From Curtobacterium sp. MR_MD2014 (GTDB lineage: Bacteria; Actinomycetota; Actinomycetes; Actinomycetales; Microbacteriaceae), in NCBI RefSeq assembly GCF_000772085.1, contig NZ_CP009755.1:3379801-3443800 (forward strand): a DNA stretch of 64,000 nt, written 5' to 3'. The position numbers were made by a program, and so were the translations under genes. How positions within the stretch are numbered: position 1 is the stretch's first letter; each line of letters starts with the position of its first letter. The notes under the pieces were generated by a model, which was not told where the DNA came from, searched no databases, and saw only the letters and a list, made by a program, of their open reading frames with translations. This document shows, piece by piece, positions 16,587 through 42,404 of this stretch.

Positions 16587-16596
16587 CGCCGACCGG

Positions 16597-35417: not shown

Positions 35418-35655
35418 GGACCCATCATCCGGCAGGGCGGACCGGTCCGCAGACGTCGGGTCCCCGAGCGCCCTTCGGTGCGACGGTGCTCACACGTTCG
35501 CGAGCCGACCAGGCGGGAGTCGAGCCAGCACGCCCCCCGGGCAGCGCCCCCTGCGCGACGCAGCATCTCGATCCGGCGTTCGGAGCGGCGCGAGCGGATG
35601 CTTCTCGTTGACTCAGACGACCGTCAGGCCGTCAGACCGCTGTTACCTTCAGCCC

Positions 35656-36087
35656 ATGAGTACCGGGCATGGCAATGCACCGCTTCGCTTGACTCCGGCG
35701 GTACGGATCGCAGCGGTGCTCGCCGCCGCGTACGGCTTCTCGCTCGTCGCGCTGGCAATCGTGCTCGCCACGGATCAGGCCCTCCATCGAGGAAACGTCG
35801 GCCACCTCCACAGCCTCGCTGCGTCTCGCGGGGTCGTGTACTTCATCGTTGCGTGTATTGCCGGCGCTGCTCTGCTGATGACGGGCAGCGTCCGAGCATG
35901 GCGCGGCGCGAGGGGGCTTCCAGCGCTCATCCCCCTCGGACTCATCGTTGCCATCGGTTGTATCGGCGAGCCGATCGACATCTTGACCGGTCAGAGCTTG
36001 AGCTCCGACATCACCGGTGTGGCGATCATCTGCGCCGCCGCCCTCCCGGCAGTACTCCTGATCCTGCCCCGAAAGGACACTGCGTAG
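35656..36087 (+). CDS. small membrane protein, first gene of the repeat-spaced island
   Basis: 143 residues with four predicted membrane helices (VRIAAVLAAAYGFSLVALAI; VVYFIVACIAGAALLM; ALIPLGLIVAIGCIG; ITGVAIICAAALPAVLLIL). No family recognised. TACCTT is 6 nt before the ATG (leaderless). Its TAG stop is part of repeat element A. Base composition is lower in G+C than the flanks. Confidence 0.6.
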   Translation: MSTGHGNAPLRLTPAVRIAAVLAAAYGFSLVALAIVLATDQALHRGNVGHLHSLAASRGVVYFIVACIAGAALLMTGSVRAWRGARGLPALIPLGLIVAIGCIGEPIDILTGQSLSSDITGVAIICAAALPAVLLILPRKDTA

Positions 36088-36104
36088 CGATCGGCTGATG
36101 AAAC
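36079..36104. repeat. island element A (degenerate)
   Basis: TAGCGATCGGCTG, one base short of the TAGCCGATCGGCTA core; its TAG is the stop codon of the preceding gene. A further degenerate half-copy follows at 36112-36137. Confidence 0.5.
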
Positions 36105-36141
36105 GGCGGCCGTCTGGCCGTCAGCCGATGCCGAGACGCGT

Positions 36142-36168
36142 TCTTGCTGACCGATCGGCTGTCGAGAT
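36142..36168. repeat. island element B
   Basis: CCGATCGGCT core followed by GTCGAGAT, reverse orientation to the consensus; ends 39 bp before the next start codon. Confidence 0.55.
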
Positions 36169-36207
36169 GCGAGCCGTAGTTTTCATCGCCGACTGGTTTG
36201 ATGAGCT

Positions 36208-36495
36208 GTGCGACGACAACGCGGAGAACCGGACACGCGCAAGCCAAACCTGGCACTCGTGCTGGCGCTCGTCGCCGGATTCTTCTGGCTCCTCGCGCTT
36301 GCGCTGCCGATCTACTTGCTCGCCCTCATCGGCAACCTCCCCGGGGAGGACCCCGAGCGCGCCGAGCGGTCCCTTGTCATCGCTTCCGGCGCTTCCTTGA
36401 GTTCCGTGCTCCTCGCAGTCCCGGCAACGATCGGCTCTTTCGTTGTGCGCCGCGCAGGAGTCCGCAGAACCAGCGCCGGAGCGGAATCGACCTGA
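36208..36495 (+). CDS. small two-helix membrane protein
   Basis: 95 residues with two membrane helices (LALVLALVAGFFWLLALAL; VIASGASLSSVLLAVPAT) and a charged N terminus. GTG start with a weak -10 (TTTGAT) about 6 nt upstream. Unknown family. Convergent with the next gene across element C. Confidence 0.5.
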   Translation: MRRQRGEPDTRKPNLALVLALVAGFFWLLALALPIYLLALIGNLPGEDPERAERSLVIASGASLSSVLLAVPATIGSFVVRRAGVRRTSAGAEST

Positions 36496-36502
36496 GATCC
36501 GT

Positions 36503-36528
36503 GTCCGACAGCCGATAGGTGTCCGGAC
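36503..36528. repeat. island element C
   Basis: GTCCGA-CAGCCGATAGG-TGTCCGGAC: outer arms kept, core altered. Lies between convergent genes ending at 36495 and 36540. Confidence 0.5.
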
Positions 36529-36539
36529 GGCTCTAGGGT

Positions 36540-36818
36540 CTACAACCCCTTGCGCTTATTGGTCTCCCAGTAGCCGAGCACCACGTCGTCTCCCTCCGGC
36601 AGCTCTCGTTCGACAAGCAGCAGCAGACGACGTCCTTGGCGTTCGTGGGAGCGCGCAGCCTCCTCAGTCGGCCAGCCAGTTTCGATGCCGTAGTTCTCGT
36701 TGAAGTCGCGAGCCCATTCGAGAATCTCGCGCTCAAGTCGGGGCGTGAAGGACGGCGTGCCAGCGTCGCAAGGACCGTCGTCGTGCCACAGCGGCCAGTC
36801 GAGGCTGTACTCATTCAT
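36540..36818 (-). CDS. hypothetical protein, 92 residues
   Basis: Soluble, acidic protein rich in Glu, Trp and aromatic residues (LEREILEWARDFNENYGIET, RLLLLVERELPEGDD). No family recognised. Its start region at 36818-36840 directly abuts the truncated end of a hydrolase gene, so its arrival or a nearby deletion probably removed the hydrolase N terminus. Confidence 0.55.
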   Translation of the reverse strand: MNEYSLDWPLWHDDGPCDAGTPSFTPRLEREILEWARDFNENYGIETGWPTEEAARSHERQGRRLLLLVERELPEGDDVVLGYWETNKRKGL

Positions 36819-36841
36819 CAGCCGGTAGCGCACACCAGCAG

Positions 36842-37246
36842 GATGGCACAGGTAGCGAGACCCTGTCCGAGCCCGATCTCCCGGAGGATGTCGTCGAGCT
36901 GCCGCTGCCGCCCTTCGACCAACTCTCCGACCAGGCCAGCATGGACGGTCTGAGCGACACGGACCTCGAGCAGTTCCGCATGCAGGCCGTGTCGCAGCCC
37001 GCCTCCGTCCTGCGCGATCCGGTCGTGTTGCACGATCAGGGAAGCACGCCTGTGCCGACCACACTGGTGTGTTGTTCCTTCCCGAGCGCGCAGGTCCTCG
37101 AGCTTGCCCGCGCGGGGCATCCGATGTTCGCGCCGATCGCAAAGCTCGAGCGAGTCGACGTCGTCGATCTCCCGACCGGGCACTGGCCGATGTGGAGTCG
37201 TCCAGAAGAGCTGGGACGGCTGATCGCCCAGGAGTCCGCGCGGTAG
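36842..37246 (+). pseudogene. alpha/beta-hydrolase remnant lacking its N-terminal half
   Basis: An open frame of 134 codons encodes the C-terminal part of an alpha/beta hydrolase (PTTLVCCSFPSAQVLELAR; DLPTGHWPMWSRPEELG, the latter with the catalytic His). The N-terminal part with the oxyanion loop and the nucleophile Ser is absent, and no good start codon is found at the break near 36840. A short product from an internal ATG (36941) is possible but would be inactive. Confidence 0.75.
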
Positions 37247-37265
37247 TGGCGCCTTCGACGACGAC

Positions 37266-37291
37266 GTCCGGAAGCTCAGCGGTTACCGGAC
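37266..37291. repeat. island element D (degenerate core)
   Basis: Outer arms GTCCGG and CCGGAC flank a 14-bp centre that matches the core at 9 of 14 positions. Lies between the hydrolase remnant and the convergent small membrane gene. Confidence 0.45.
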
Positions 37292-37383
37292 GCTCGGCGA
37301 TGAGAACCGATGCTTCACTTTGGTCTCCGCCCTGAGCGCGGGATCCAGATCGCGACTCCCGCGTGGGTCGACACCTCGACGAG

Positions 37384-37426
37384 CGACGACCGCCCCAGCA
37401 TCGAAGGCTGCTGGGGCGGTCGTCGC
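37384..37426 (-). terminator. strong hairpin terminator of the secreted protein operon
   Basis: GACGACCGCCCCAGCA and its complement form a 16-bp stem around an 8-nt loop directly after the stop at 37428. Confidence 0.75.
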
Positions 37427-37427
37427 C

Positions 37428-37601
37428 TCACCGCGGTCCTGGCCTCTGCCGCTTCCGTCGGGCGATCACGGCATCTCCAGCGATGAGGGCGAGTGCTGAG
37501 GCGGCTCCGATGATGGCGAGCAACCACCAGCCTATGTCGGTGAGGAAGCCGATCAAGCCGAGGACGACGATGGGAATCGGAATGTATTTCAGCAAGTTCA
37601 T
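37428..37601 (-). CDS. 57-residue membrane protein, partner of the secreted protein
   Basis: Sequence MNLLKYIPIPIVVLGLIGFL opens the protein; two hydrophobic segments (about residues 7-21 and 24-45) are followed by a very basic tail (ARRKRQRPGPR). GAGGTG lies 2-7 nt before the ATG, which is only 6 bp after the stop of the upstream secreted protein gene, and the strong terminator follows it. The layout (secreted Cys-containing protein, then a tiny membrane protein) is like an effector with its immunity or export partner; that is an inference. Confidence 0.65.
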   Translation of the reverse strand: MNLLKYIPIPIVVLGLIGFLTDIGWWLLAIIGAASALALIAGDAVIARRKRQRPGPR

Positions 37602-37607
37602 TGCACC

Positions 37608-38579
37608 TCAACTGCAGTTGCTTCGAGCGGTCTTCACGAAGGGTCGAGACTCGCCGCCGATCTTCGTCTGGTAGCAGGAGTTGCCCGCGTACTTCTTGTT
37701 CGAGTAGATCTTCGCGATGCTCGTGAAGACCTGCTTCACCGTCACTCCTCCAACGGCGGTGCAGAGGATCGCGGCCGCTTTCGCGGGTCCCGCCGGGAGT
37801 TTGGTCGCGCCCCCGCAGATGGCGGCAGCGCTGAGTCCCGTAACGGCTGCCACTGCCGTAGCGATCGCCTTCATCTCCGCTCCGGTCAGGTTGATGTACG
37901 CGCCGGGCCCGTAAGGAGTGCCGGTGATACCCGCAGTGATCTTCGGATCTGCGACCACTGGGTACGTGGTTCCTGCATTCCTGTGTTCGACCACCTGGAC
38001 GAGGCGTCCGCTGTCCACCTCGTAGTGGGTCGGGACAGTGACACCAGCCGCGTCCTTTGCCCAGGGAGCGTCGATGATGCCTGCGACGGGCGGCACGGTG
38101 TCGTCCGTCTCCGGGCTGTCGAAGAGCACGACTGAACCGTCCTCGTTCAGAACTGGGACGACCGAGTCCGGCAGTGCGTACGTGAAGCGCGACGGCGCGG
38201 CGTTGTCCTGCAGGACTGCCTGGACGCGCACTCCATCGCTGAGCGCCTGTGCTGCCACGTCAGTCGACGTCGCGGCGTTGGCGTAGACGACCGTACCGTC
38301 CGCCGCAGCTTGCCCGACCGCGTTCCGTGCAGCCCCCGGCAGGCCGAAGCGCAATGTGCCGTCCGCAGTTGCGAGCTCGATCGCACCGGCGGTGTCTTCT
38401 GGGAGCGTCGTCACCGACGAACCACCGTCCTGCACATCCAATTCAGGAGCAACGCGCGCGATGTCCTGAGCAACTGCGTCCGCGTCCGAGGTGCCGTCGG
38501 CGTGCGCCACTCCAGCGCCTGCCAGAACCAGTGCTCCAGCAGCAACGGTGGCCAAGAGTGCGTGTGTCCTCACCTGCAT
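37608..38579 (-). CDS. secreted protein of unknown function with four C-terminal cysteines
   Basis: 323 residues. Signal peptide THALLATVAAGALVLAGAG ending AHA; then an Asp/Ala-rich domain with TTYPVVADP, a pattern seen in other secreted actinobacterial proteins. The last 100 residues are Gly/Ala-rich and hydrophobic (TAVAAVTGLSAAAICGG, AKAAAILCTAVGG) and end with GNSCYQTK and RSNCS, so two disulfides are possible. ATG at 38579 is chosen for the GAGGGG upstream; ATG 38594 is an alternative. Confidence 0.7.
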   Translation of the reverse strand: MQVRTHALLATVAAGALVLAGAGVAHADGTSDADAVAQDIARVAPELDVQDGGSSVTTLPEDTAGAIELATADGTLRFGLPGAARNAVGQAAADGTVVYANAATSTDVAAQALSDGVRVQAVLQDNAAPSRFTYALPDSVVPVLNEDGSVVLFDSPETDDTVPPVAGIIDAPWAKDAAGVTVPTHYEVDSGRLVQVVEHRNAGTTYPVVADPKITAGITGTPYGPGAYINLTGAEMKAIATAVAAVTGLSAAAICGGATKLPAGPAKAAAILCTAVGGVTVKQVFTSIAKIYSNKKYAGNSCYQTKIGGESRPFVKTARSNCS

Positions 38580-39061
38580 GTTCGATCCCCTCATCGTCCA
38601 GTGGGCAGTGCGCCGGTCGGAGCTTGACAGCTACGCGAGGGCCCGCGCATCCAGCCGAGGAGGGAGGCGCTCTGGCCAGACGGCCAGCACGTGACCCCAG
38701 GCGGACGTCTGAAGTGCACCTCAGCTGAACGTAAGGATCCGTGACCGGCTCGGTTCGACAAAGGCGGGCTCTCTGACCTCCTCGTGGATCTGAGGCTTCC
38801 AGCTGACCGTGATGGCGGGTCAGCTGGTCGGGGTGTGGAGGCGAGCAGCACTGGGGTGCGGCGCGTCAGCCGACGGCGTCGCATTGGGGAGTGTCGAGTT
38901 CAGGGCACCGAAAAGGACGCGGATTGCCCGCAGTTCGAGGCGATGGTCGGGTCGTACGAGGACGGGGACATGCCCTCCCCCTCCACAGAGTCCCGATAGC
39001 CGATCAACTACCGGACAGCTGAGATCAAGCCTCGCCGTCTGCTGCTCGCTACCTTCGATTC
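38580..39061. other. 482-bp stretch with no complete gene
   Basis: Holds the promoter side of the secreted protein gene, a perfect hairpin (CCAGCTGACC, 38799-38808, with GGTCAGCTGG, 38818-38827) and, at about 38910-38999 on the plus strand, a protein-like acidic frame (CPQFEAMVGSYEDGDMPSP) whose TAG stop belongs to element E; probably the 3' end of a lost gene. Confidence 0.5.
38990..39016. repeat. island element E
   Basis: Arm GTCCCGA, core TAGCCGATCAACTA, arm CCGGAC; 27 bp, plus orientation. Ends 45 bp before the next start codon. Confidence 0.7.
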
Positions 39062-39262
39062 ATGAGCAAGTCATCGTTCTGGCGTCGGGCGAGCATTGCT
39101 ACCGCCTCCCTTGTGCTGGGCCTGGCGTGCCTACTGACGCCAGCGCGGACCGCGATCACGACACACGGCTTCCCGACGTGGGTCCTCGCCGTCGTTCTTC
39201 TGATTGGCGGCGCGGGCTTGTGGGTTGATGCGCTGATCGGCCGAGCTCGAGATCGCGATTGA
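39062..39262 (+). CDS. 66-residue membrane protein
   Basis: Two membrane helices (IATASLVLGLACLLT; WVLAVVLLIGGAGLWVDAL) and a charged end (GRARDRD). TACCTT is exactly 6 nt before the ATG, the same arrangement as the gene at 35656. No family recognised. Confidence 0.55.
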   Translation: MSKSSFWRRASIATASLVLGLACLLTPARTAITTHGFPTWVLAVVLLIGGAGLWVDALIGRARDRD

Positions 39263-39326
39263 GTCGAAGGGGTTGGAAATTTCCGGCTGCTCTTCTCAGT
39301 GCTCGTCAGCTGTGCTCTCGACGTCA

Positions 39327-39345
39327 CATCGGCGTATCAGATGAC
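39327..39345. repeat. island element H' (weak)
   Basis: ATCGGCGTATCAGATGAC resembles half of the element (ATCGGCTATCGAGAC). Between the genes at 39062 and 39397. Confidence 0.35.
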
Positions 39346-39396
39346 AAGCCCCATCGGGCGTTACGGCTGCCTTTCTGCACGGTGCAAGATGGGGTC

Positions 39397-39612
39397 GTGA
39401 GCAAAGAACCCGAGAAGAAGCGAACGTGGTCGCGTGGCACCATGATTCTCGTCGGATCCTTGGTCGTCCTGTCCCAAGTGCTCACGATCACGTCCCGAAT
39501 TCTTGACGGCGACAGCTTCTTCAGCCCGTGGGTCATCTTCAGCGCGGCCCTCGCCGTAATCGGTGCAATCTTCGCCGGGATCGCGCTCACCAGGACGAAG
39601 CGGTCTCGCTGA
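39397..39612 (+). CDS. 71-residue two-helix membrane protein
   Basis: Charged N terminus (SKEPEKKRTWSRG), then MILVGSLVVLSQVLTIT and VIFSAALAVIGAIFAGIAL helices and a basic tail. CAAGAT is 6 nt before the GTG. Unknown family; could belong to the loosely defined small actinobacterial membrane proteins. Confidence 0.5.
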   Translation: MSKEPEKKRTWSRGTMILVGSLVVLSQVLTITSRILDGDSFFSPWVIFSAALAVIGAIFAGIALTRTKRSR

Positions 39613-39622
39613 CGCCTCTCGC

Positions 39623-39649
39623 GTCCGGTAGCCGATCGGCTATCGAGAC
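39623..39649. repeat. island element F (perfect core)
   Basis: Arm GTCCGG, perfect palindromic core TAGCCGATCGGCTA (39629-39642), arm TCGAGAC; minus orientation. 10 bp after one gene's stop and 48 bp before the next start. Confidence 0.8.
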
Positions 39650-39697
39650 GGCATGGTGGGCTGTTCCTCTGGTTTGGGCGCGGCCTAGGCTGAACGG

Positions 39698-40204
39698 ATG
39701 TCTCGCGTCTCTGACAATTTCGGTTCTATGACGGTGACTGAGTCCGGCGGGACGCCCGGGCGTCGGACGTTGCTGTCTGTCTTGCCGTTGACGACGGCGT
39801 GGGCGGGGGCCGCAGCTGTTGTCGCCGTCCCGATCGCGGGCGTTGTCGTCGGTGCCGTTGTCGAGCGTTCGACCAGTGGTTTGTCGTTCATCCCGATCAT
39901 GGTTCCGGTGCTCGTGGGAGCGGCGGCGGCCACATTCGTGTTCGGGCTCGCTGCTGGAGCGTTGGCGGGTCTACCGGATTGGTTCCTGCGTCGACGTCCA
40001 CTCGGCACGGTCGGCGCCGTTGCGGCCGTCGTGATCCTGACTCTGGTCGTGGCGGGCGCATCGAGCGCCGCGTTTCTGGTGGCGCCCTACTTGATCCCAT
40101 GGCCGGTACTGACGCAGGTGTGCGTCGTGGCAGCAACGACAGCGATCGCGACGCTGGTGGTCGTCGCCTTGCACCGCCGACGCGAACGTCAACGACACCA
40201 GTAG
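39698..40204 (+). CDS. 168-residue four-helix membrane protein
   Basis: Four membrane helices with a middle basic loop (DWFLRRRPLG) and a basic C terminus (HRRRERQRHQ). TAGGCT is exactly 6 nt before the ATG. No family recognised. Confidence 0.55.
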   Translation: MSRVSDNFGSMTVTESGGTPGRRTLLSVLPLTTAWAGAAAVVAVPIAGVVVGAVVERSTSGLSFIPIMVPVLVGAAAATFVFGLAAGALAGLPDWFLRRRPLGTVGAVAAVVILTLVVAGASSAAFLVAPYLIPWPVLTQVCVVAATTAIATLVVVALHRRRERQRHQ

Positions 40205-40243
40205 ACGAGCGGCGTCGCTGCTGCCCCTATTCGGCGGAACGGT

Positions 40244-40270
40244 GTCCGGAGGACCATCGGCTAGCGAGAC
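40244..40270. repeat. island element G
   Basis: 27 bp, identical to element F at 22 positions (arm GTCCGG, ATCGGCTA, end GCGAGAC). Between convergent genes ending at 40204 and 40277. Confidence 0.7.
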
Positions 40271-40276
40271 AAACCC

Positions 40277-40609
40277 TCAAGCGACTACTGGCCCGAACCA
40301 GAGCAACACGGGTCCCAGGGCAAGCAGGACCGCACTCGCGGCCATGACTGCCTCGCTGCGCTTAGCCCCTGCTTCCTTTCGGGACCGTGCCGCTAGCGCG
40401 AGGGCGGTCCAGGTTCCGCCCCACGGTCCTACGGCCAGTAAGAAGACAATCGGGTAGAGGAAGAGGGTGCCCTCGCTGCCGGTTAGGAGCACGGGGAGCC
40501 ACATGATCGCCCAAAGGATCGCGAAGCCCGCCGCAGAGCAGATCAGCAGCGCCAGCGCTGTGCTGTAACGCCCGTTGGTCGGCGACTCAGGCTGAACAAG
40601 CGTCCACAT
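40277..40609 (-). CDS. 110-residue membrane protein
   Basis: Three to four membrane helices (ALALLICSAAGFAILWAIMW; LFLYPIVFLLAVGPWGGTW; AASAVLLALGPVLLWFG). TAGCAT is exactly 6 nt before the ATG on the minus strand. No family recognised. Confidence 0.5.
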   Translation of the reverse strand: MWTLVQPESPTNGRYSTALALLICSAAGFAILWAIMWLPVLLTGSEGTLFLYPIVFLLAVGPWGGTWTALALAARSRKEAGAKRSEAVMAASAVLLALGPVLLWFGPVVA

Positions 40610-40638
40610 AGCATGATGCTAGCCAGACTGTCGCTGCC

Positions 40639-40654
40639 GCGTCGGCTATCAGAC
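40639..40654. repeat. island element H (half copy)
   Basis: GTCGGCTATCAGAC, matching the 3' half of element F. Lies between two divergent genes (starts 40609 and 40681), where a terminator would not be expected. Confidence 0.5.
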
Positions 40655-40680
40655 GCAGGGGGACGGGGCACAGTAGTGCC

Positions 40681-41031
40681 ATGTCTTGGCTCGCGGCGCA
40701 AATCTTCCAGCGGAACCAAGACCGTCGCGCGCGTCAGCATGCAGCTCACAGGCTGGCTGCACCCCCGGCGCTTCACCCGATTCTGGGAGTTGGAGGTCGG
40801 TCGATTCAACTCTCGATCGCCTCGGACGTCCCTCCCGACCCTGGCGCGTTTGAACTTGCAGCCGAGCACATACACACTCTCGTGATGCAGCAAGACACTG
40901 AACGTAGCGACCTCTTACAGGCGGCGCGGTGGCTTCGTGGTCTCTGGTCCCCCGAGGCCCCCGCGTCAGTCCTCGCTCGACTCGACGACGACCTCGAGGA
41001 GCTTGGCCGCCGTCAGACGAAGGGGTATTAG
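40681..41031 (+). CDS. 116-residue soluble hypothetical protein
   Basis: Gln/Arg/Ala-rich, probably helical (AAQIFQRNQDRRARQHAAHR; RLDDDLEELGRRQ). CACAGT lies 6 nt before the ATG. No family recognised. Its TAG stop directly touches the core of element I. Confidence 0.45.
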   Translation: MSWLAAQIFQRNQDRRARQHAAHRLAAPPALHPILGVGGRSIQLSIASDVPPDPGAFELAAEHIHTLVMQQDTERSDLLQAARWLRGLWSPEAPASVLARLDDDLEELGRRQTKGY

Positions 41032-41051
41032 TAGCCGATCGGCTACCGGGC
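41025..41051. repeat. island element I (perfect core)
   Basis: Perfect palindrome TAGCCGATCGGCTA at 41032-41045, then CCGGGC. The TAG read on the minus strand (41045-41043) is the stop codon of the convergent GNAT gene; the plus-strand gene stops one codon before the core. Confidence 0.8.
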
Positions 41052-41576
41052 AGGCGCGTCGGGTAATGACACGGTGAACTTGAAGCCCACGTGCGAGTCG
41101 ATGAAACCGAGACGACGGTAGAAGCGGTGCGCATCGGTACGCGCAGCGTCGGAGGTCAGCTGCACCAGCGGAGTCCTGAGTTCGATCGCGGCCTGCGCGA
41201 CAACCCATCGCATCAGACTCGTTCCGACGCCCGAAGACCGCTCTGTGCCGGCGACGCGGACTGCCTCGACCAGCAGCCGGGCACTGCCTCGTCGAGCCAT
41301 TCCGGGGATGACCGTCAGCTGCAGCGTGCCGATGACGGCTGCGAGCTCGTCTTCCAGGACGAGCACATCATTGCTCGGGTCGCCGATGATGCGTTGCAAG
41401 GCTTCCGCATAGGCCGCCTCGTCCGCGGTGCTCCCCACGTCGCCACGCCCGGCGCTGATCGGATCGTCCGACAGGAGCCGGATGATCGGATGCAGGTCCG
41501 CGGCTGTGGCCCGTCGGAGCAGCAGCTCACGGTCGCGGGAGGGGATGGTGGCGGGGAGAGTCAATCCAGAGATCAC
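41043..41576 (-). CDS. GNAT-family N-acetyltransferase
   Basis: 177 residues with a GNAT core: LLLRRATAADLHPIIRLL, MARRGSARLLVEAVRV, the acetyl-CoA loop GTERSSGVGTSLMRWV and HRFYRRLGF near the C terminus. The nearest -10-like sequence is GACAAT. Similar to single-domain acetyltransferases of unknown substrate. The stop is supplied by element I. Confidence 0.75.
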   Translation of the reverse strand: MISGLTLPATIPSRDRELLLRRATAADLHPIIRLLSDDPISAGRGDVGSTADEAAYAEALQRIIGDPSNDVLVLEDELAAVIGTLQLTVIPGMARRGSARLLVEAVRVAGTERSSGVGTSLMRWVVAQAAIELRTPLVQLTSDAARTDAHRFYRRLGFIDSHVGFKFTVSLPDAPAR

Positions 41577-41702
41577 ACCGCATTGTCTCTGACGTACAAG
41601 AGTCAGGAAGCAGACCGCCACCGCAGTGAAGCGGACACGGATGAAGGATGCAGATGCGGTGCGGCGAGCAATCAACTGACGCACCTACAGCTCATCGTGA
41701 CC

Positions 41703-41729
41703 GTCCCGATAGCCGATCGGCCACCGGAC
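41703..41729. repeat. island element J
   Basis: Arm GTCCCGA, core TAGCCGATCGGCCA, arm CCGGAC; plus orientation. In the divergent gap between the GNAT gene and the frameshifted gene at 41750. Confidence 0.75.
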
Positions 41730-41749
41730 GCCGCTGGAACGATGAACGT

Positions 41750-42147
41750 GTGACGTTCCACACCATGACCGAGCATGACGTCGAACCCATTCGTGCTTTC
41801 CTGCGCGACGCCGACCTGACCCTTGCCGGTCTCGACGAGCCGACCGTTCACCTCTGGATCGAACAGGAGAAGCGGGGACAGTAATCGGTAGCACCGGCTT
41901 CGAGCTGAGCCGGGACGGCACCGACGCGCTGATCCGGAGCGTCGCCGTGGCACCCGACCGTCGTGCGGCCGGTGCCGGCTCGCGCCTCGCCATGTTCGCA
42001 CTCGAACAAGCGGCACAGGCCGGGGCATCGTGCGCCTGGCTGTTCTCTCGACGATCGGGGCCGTTCTGGCAGAAGCTCGGCTTCACCAACGCCGACCGAG
42101 AACGCCTGGCGGCCGTGTTGCCCGAGACGCAACAGGTTTGCCTCTGA
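41750..42147 (+). pseudogene. ArsN2-like GNAT acetyltransferase broken by one frameshift
   Basis: The first frame starts at GTG 41750 (TMTEHDVEPIRAFLRDADL) and ends at TAA 41882-41884. The second half continues in another frame from about 41875 (VIGSTGFELSRDG, then VAPDRRAAGAGSRLAMFALE and FWQKLGFTNADRERLAAVL). Loss of one G in the run at 41874-41877 would explain the break. The joined product matches single-domain GNAT proteins annotated as arsenic resistance N-acetyltransferase ArsN2. A sequencing error in the G run is possible. Confidence 0.75.
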
Positions 42148-42385: not shown

Positions 42386-42404
42386 GGGCGCGGCGACAGG
42401 TCGC
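42386..42404 (-). terminator. possible dnaB terminator hairpin
   Basis: GGCGAC and GTCGCC form a short stem just past the dnaB stop. The rest of 42148-42405 shows no gene I can support. Confidence 0.3.

Follow-up and report, generated by a model that had tools for sequence, protein, structure and literature searches.

Arrays of small-gene cassettes bounded by half-site junctions in Curtobacterium, with a small serine recombinase as the candidate enzyme

The window analyzed here is a stretch of 64,000 nucleotides, the terminal 64 kb of the 3.44-Mb single-contig chromosome of Curtobacterium sp. MR_MD2014, and it contains a run of small genes, situated between a regulator gene and dnaB, whose junctions carry a short repeated element. 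An earlier note on this DNA had described a fixed 27-bp palindrome at 11 positions and had proposed either an array of gene cassettes with a shared recombination site or an operator for a common regulator. We located the element with a half-site model (two half types, trained iteratively on 37 array loci and run on fetched loci only), in which a score of at least 18 defines a clear element. The model found 132 elements in the training loci compared to 1 in backward-read sequence, and 252 in a set of 57 loci (1.02 Mb) compared to 2 in the reversed sequence. The window has eight elements, every one at 36.14-41.73 kb, and 40 dinucleotide shuffles of it gave a mean of 0.075 elements and a maximum of 1; the sole other window site scoring at least 13 lies at 16592 (score 13.1). 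Elements sit at gene junctions, as the earlier note had observed: across the 57 loci, 3 out of 252 fall inside called genes, which cover 63% of the bases, although this contrast is somewhat inflated by the simple gene finder used, which overlooks some small cassette genes. Homology to genome G050, which is without the whole island, ends at 35458 and restarts at 42403; the 2.77 kb of other DNA in between contain no element.

The left edge of the array is the element at 36141..36168 (centre 36154, score 27.4), whose right half is common to locus L001, another island on the same chromosome, while its left half is not. The cassette that follows (36155..36515, plus strand) holds a small membrane-like open reading frame (ORF) at 36208-36495 (95 aa, no Pfam match) and is closed by the element at 36502..36529 (centre 36515, score 22.4). 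Next comes a cassette at 36516..37278 with two ORFs, one on the minus strand (36540-36818, 92 aa) that has a relative at L044:10963-11253, and one on the plus strand (36941-37246, 101 aa) that resembles a piece of an alpha/beta hydrolase and has no Pfam match at 0.01; the DNA at 37058-37212 matches plasmid genes named alpha/beta hydrolase or esterase. Beyond the element at 37265..37292 (centre 37278, score 22.8) lies a unit at 37279..39003 (minus strand), with an ORF at 37608-38594 whose 328-aa product looks secreted and has no Pfam match, and then the element at 38990..39017 (centre 39003, score 36.6). The cassette at 39004..39345 (plus strand; ORF 39062-39262, 66 aa) matches L087:10961-11312 at 79% and ends in a degenerate boundary, the 39.33 site (39320..39345), where the match also ends; the L087 unit ends at an element scoring 20.6. 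It is followed by a cassette at 39346..39635 (plus strand; ORF 39442-39612, 56 aa, no Pfam match), the element at 39622..39649 (centre 39635, score 43.5), a cassette at 39636..40256 (plus strand; membrane-like ORF 39698-40204, 168 aa), the element at 40243..40270 (centre 40256, score 30.2), and a cassette at 40257..40641 (minus strand; membrane-like ORF 40277-40609, 110 aa). At the 40.64 site, a single half-site survives (40642..40657), and here the match to L076 starts at distance 0 from the L076 element; the cassette at 40642..41038 (plus strand; ORF 40681-41031, 116 aa) matches L076:8756-8349 at 87% in the opposite locus orientation. The element at 41025..41052 (centre 41038, score 30.9) precedes a cassette at 41039..41716 (minus strand) that encodes a GNAT acetyltransferase (ORF 41043-41576; the DNA at 41080-41477 matches a GNAT gene), and the element at 41703..41730 (centre 41716, score 38.2) forms the right edge of the array ahead of dnaB. 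A Pfam search at 0.01 gave no match for the nine window proteins tested. To the right of the last element, 41751-42147 holds an apparently interrupted GNAT-type acetyltransferase frame before dnaB.

Eight of the 11 positions in the earlier note thus correspond to scored elements. The 39.33 and 40.64 sites fall short in the model, yet both are real boundaries, since window 38994-39345 and 40642-41048 match units of other genomes that end at scored elements, and one half of the 40.64 site is still legible; the copy at 36.08 kb scores below 13 and has no boundary support. The element is not confined to this island, as two further islands on the same chromosome carry six copies (L001) and six copies (L044 plus L045). 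A genome-scale screen with a 22-bp pattern (up to three mismatches; palindromic sites may count twice) gave six sites in the whole chromosome, all within the three islands. Immediately left of the second island is a tRNA-Gln gene (L001:5909-5981).

We found that the element is not a fixed palindrome and instead is built from interchangeable halves, 13 or 14 bp long, of two types, half A (GTCYCGRTAGCCGA) and half B (GTCCGRTAGCCGA), where A equals B plus one base. Two halves abut around a central AT, a pair present in 227 out of 252 elements, and together span about 27 bp. The halves pair as AA in 36, AB in 129, and BB in 87 of these elements (random expectation 40/121/91, p 0.28), and the complementarity between the two halves of an element is 5.86 of 9 positions, compared to 5.93 (sd 0.057) in shuffled halves. 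Because pairing is random and complementarity is not in excess, the element is the junction of two independent ends, neither a conserved hairpin nor a fixed asymmetric site. A folded, attC-like site was dropped as a candidate, as there is no complementarity constraint between the halves, and an early assignment of A halves to the cassettes and of B halves to the array was given up once pairing proved random. AC/GT stands in place of the central AT in 24 out of 252 elements, which may make these sites directional. We also observed a 96-97-bp unit between two elements in which a gene is not evident and which has a third, internal half-site-like stretch. It has nine copies in sister genera (L147:12481-12577, L149:13109-13206, L150:10528-10625, L151:12509-12606, L152:12272-12369, L153:10032-10129, L155:9426-9523, L157:5829-5926, and L158:13895-13992), of which those in L150 and L151 are nearly identical, and could be a primary or an accessory site.

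The units between elements recur elsewhere as single units, in differing orders and orientations. For the window unit at 36155-36515, a second copy (93%) exists in L001:8096-8464, 369 bp long and located at 663 kb on the same chromosome, and both limits of this homology fall within elements. Overall, an element centre is no more than 15 bp away for 184 out of 1189 alignment ends, compared to 0.8% of random points; the remaining ends include ordinary shared genes. We identified 40 locus pairs that share a unit bounded by elements (an element no more than 20 bp from three of the four ends or from both ends of the query), several of which represent one cassette family; three include the window, and two of these back its weak 39.33 and 40.64 sites. 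In the cassette ends that were profiled (95 of 97, 60 of them at at least 88%), the inner side is alike from the centre, and by position -3 the outer side is no more similar than unrelated halves are. As the inner half is kept and the outer half replaced by that position, the exchange occurs at the centre, within about 3 bp. In two cases of gain or loss of a single unit, with gaps of 486 and 608 bp, each of the three boundaries coincides with an element, and two Curtobacterium plasmids, D35 (from Curtobacterium sp. MCBD17_035) and D40, are 99.85% identical over 15.5 kb from an element while their left halves differ. On these comparisons, we are nearly certain that the units are cassettes exchanged between genomes, recently between plasmids. 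Among 90 cassette proteins, Pfam at 1e-4 identifies GNAT acetyltransferases (11 by the model that matches most often), alpha/beta hydrolases (5), cold-shock domains (3), NUDIX (2), resolvases (2), a TIR protein (1), and others. One 4.7-kb unit (L046:7747-12424) carries an IS3-like transposase pair between two identical B/B elements.

The element is found throughout the genus: the 22-bp pattern occurs in 66 out of 66 sampled Curtobacterium genomes (a single match overall in the reversed control), with arrays on both chromosomes and plasmids. In the family, 28 out of 349 genomes match, eight of them in the genus, compared to 17 out of 349 in the reversed control, and several matches per genome are seen in two sister genera.

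Clustering of the proteins encoded near elements brought up a small serine recombinase of about 190 aa, which belongs to the Gin/Hin/resolvase family (PF00239 plus PF02796, the resolvase catalytic domain and a C-terminal helix-turn-helix) and has a DNA invertase as its best solved relative (E 5e-28). Ser11, Arg9, Arg70, and Arg73, presumably catalytic, are invariant in nine recombinase sequences. In Curtobacterium, the gene sits inside arrays, and close forms (matching at at least 69%) occur in 21 out of 66 genomes: one subtype (at least 94%) in 10 genomes, within a unit of about 745 bp, and another (69-72%) in 11, one of them partial. In the loci of the first subtype (L103-L112), most of the 10 copies are followed, about 20-60 bp past the stop codon, by two B-like half-sites in inverted repeat that face the opposite way. 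Plasmids of Curtobacterium and Frigoribacterium carry the recombinase gene along with elements. In two sister genera, all 16 fetched recombinase loci, which were selected by the recombinase in genera already showing elements, have 2-14 elements 3' of the gene and no 5' element besides a site 130-133 bp before the start codon, which scores at least 18 in 11 out of 16 loci. Of the two halves of this upstream site, the one toward the gene hardly varies and the outer one changes with the flank. At its centre, the site has G|T. A further count in the sister genera gave a site beside the gene in 12 out of 14 loci. One of these genera is probably Frigoribacterium, judging by an enzyme 97% identical to that of a Frigoribacterium plasmid. 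The placement of the array 3' of the gene is not a general rule, as it fails in Curtobacterium. In L145/L149 and L146/L156, conservation at 91-92% covers the upstream flank and the recombinase, and the homology ends with the gene, which looks like a fixed recombinase beside a variable array, and L150 and L151 share 9.1 kb at 99.6% from the upstream site on, with different flanks. Elsewhere (91 loci: those of other genera and three more from one sister genus), an element-like site scoring at least 15 lies within 400 bp upstream of the gene in 15 loci, compared to 23 out of 1201 control windows (p 7e-9), and 14 of these 15 sites are 108-141 bp before it. Outside Curtobacterium, the recombinase is present in 9 out of 20 genomes with the pattern and in 40 out of 321 others.

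Together, these observations suggest that the island is probably an array of mobile gene cassettes moved by a site-specific recombinase. The half-sites, their random pairing, the breakpoints at the centre, the gain and loss of single units, and the recent plasmid exchange are read from the sequences themselves, while we infer the enzyme, for which the serine recombinase is the best candidate, from its co-location with elements and the site upstream of its gene. We propose that each cassette ends in 13-14-bp half-sites, A or B, and that the halves of two neighbouring cassettes together make up the roughly 27-bp site around AT. The recombinase would exchange two such sites at the centre, so that a cassette would retain its inner halves and acquire new outer halves, and the palindromic centre would permit entry in either orientation. 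The enzyme would be the small serine recombinase, encoded within the arrays in Curtobacterium and with a similar site upstream of its gene in relatives. As the window's chromosome has no gene for it, the arrays there would now be static or moved in trans. The cassette array with a shared recombination site that the earlier note envisaged is thereby supported, and the tests it named gave concordant answers: copies cluster in islands, homology is bounded by elements, single units have been gained or lost at elements in two cases, and a serine recombinase gene goes with the element.

Several observations weigh against this proposal. The recombinase is absent (no match at E 1e-3) from the window's genome and 14 others of the 66; tblastn in the window gave nothing convincing (best E 0.035, away from 38.87-38.97 kb), and a suspected recombinase remnant at about 38.87-38.97 kb was rejected, as the match to a plasmid recombinase gene spans just 107 bp. 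Among the 10 copies of the first subtype, only 5 have a scored upstream site, at 49-50 bp from the gene, and the second subtype has one in only 3 out of 10; some of its copies carry a different leader. In the sister-genus loci L145-L161, homology of the second subtype stops around the stop codon, with no half-site detected there. Outside the sister-genus set, 76 out of the 91 loci have no upstream site, and relatives at 82% in other genera show one weak element in 11 loci. The genome-level link hangs on a single genus, without which it is 3 out of 14 compared to 39 out of 320 (p 0.25). Finally, of the 341 genomes outside Curtobacterium, 20 match the pattern, many by chance single matches, given the matches in the reversed control.

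The same cassettes might instead be moved by host XerC/XerD or by another tyrosine recombinase, as in the dif modules of Acinetobacter, which we consider unlikely. Such an enzyme would fit the site length and the exchange at the centre equally well, and conservation of the centre is so strong that breakpoints do not discriminate between serine and tyrosine exchange, which also counts against our proposal. XerC/XerD-type enzymes occur in nearly every genome, and the element and the genus dif have CGATA in common. However, the dif core of the genus (CGATAATGCATATTATGTCA, a typed pattern of which matched in 29 out of 30 genomes) is without the arms of the element, and the element is without the TTATGTCA arm, so the host dif was set aside as the element. 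Furthermore, the gene within arrays is a serine recombinase, not Xer. The earlier note saw no integrase, which is right for the window (no PF00589 match, compared to three genes in its genome), and 8 out of 66 element-bearing genomes of the genus, with 4-14 pattern matches each, possess two tyrosine recombinases and no more, presumably the XerC/XerD pair. A tyrosine integrase of phage type (G000:C1:174978-175499, L043), accompanied by a small gene resembling an excisionase, lies upstream of the third island; as a general mover this integrase was rejected, since those eight genomes have no third tyrosine recombinase.

Two other explanations concern the nature of the units and of the element. 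That the units are non-autonomous transposons resembling miniature inverted-repeat transposable elements, with half-site ends, inserted abutted by a transposase with AT duplication, would agree with the inverted ends around a 2-bp centre and with the occurrence of single units in many contexts. We regard this as improbable, as the junctions are two abutted halves and the outer sides too carry half-sites, with a half-site-like sequence even at the array edge next to the recombinase; the recurrent recombinase-like neighbour in the protein clustering is the serine recombinase and not any transposase family, though a transposase with unrecognised domains may exist. The operator proposed by the earlier note, or a terminator or other regulatory repeat of small genes, would account for the position at gene junctions. 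It fails to explain why homology ends at the element centre and why halves re-pair at random, and complementarity within an element does not exceed that of shuffled halves. Such a reading is already contradicted by the mobility of the units, and we give it hardly any weight, even though a side role in regulation may exist.

Most of what is known of exchangeable cassette arrays comes from integrons and dif modules, which both depend on tyrosine recombinases. As in integrons (IntI/attC, including clusters of attC sites lacking integron-integrases, CALIN), we find single small genes arrayed as exchangeable cassettes, with recombination sites between them, on chromosomes and plasmids. The two sister genera add a recombinase gene with a conserved flank beside a variable array, and the window's arrays without a recombinase gene resemble integron arrays without integrase. 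In contrast to the tyrosine enzyme of integrons, the candidate here is a serine enzyme, and the site is a short double-strand half-site junction without fold constraint that is used in both orientations. Neither an IntI-type tyrosine integrase (judged by PF00589 counts; the IntI-specific extra domain was not searched for) nor a folded attC with complementary arms was found, there being no excess complementarity between halves. The IntegronFinder 2.0 paper reports no complete integrons in Actinobacteria (PMC9024848). The dif (pdif) modules of Acinetobacter are described as genes between sites of about 28 bp, in mixed orientation and rearranged between plasmids (PMC13141974), a likeness in all three respects. 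They use XerC/XerD and dif-like spacers, whereas here the sites do not resemble the host dif (CGATAATGCATATTATGTCA) and the associated gene encodes a serine recombinase. DNA invertases (Gin, Hin) and transposon resolvases belong to the same protein family as this recombinase and have a site near the gene, as this recombinase does in part of its loci. Small serine recombinases act on a short site with a 2-bp centre, and known members of the family bring about inversion or resolution inside a single element; the sites described here delimit many gene units that pass between genomes. Staphylococcal cassette chromosomes likewise combine a serine recombinase (the large ccr type) with modular insertion, but they are large elements with their own ccr genes at one chromosomal site, unlike arrays of single small genes. 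Among the matches listed in the open-access literature (subscription papers and preprints being outside its scope), none concerned serine-recombinase gene cassettes or Curtobacterium cassettes.

In function, the system is integron- or dif-like, yet it lacks the hallmarks tested, namely the integrase type and folded site of integrons and the dif-like site of dif modules, and it seems to have been assembled from parts unrelated to integrons. We think it likely that it represents a second, independently evolved integron-like system, in which a small serine recombinase would capture, flip, and exchange single-gene cassettes at sites built from half-sites. There is also a good chance that this system extends across Curtobacterium, on chromosomes and plasmids, and into sister genera, in a phylum practically without integrons. 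If so, cassette capture arose more than once, the swapping of single small genes in these Actinobacteria would be explained, and the motif would delimit many uncharacterised small genes and offer a double-strand cassette tool without fixed orientation.

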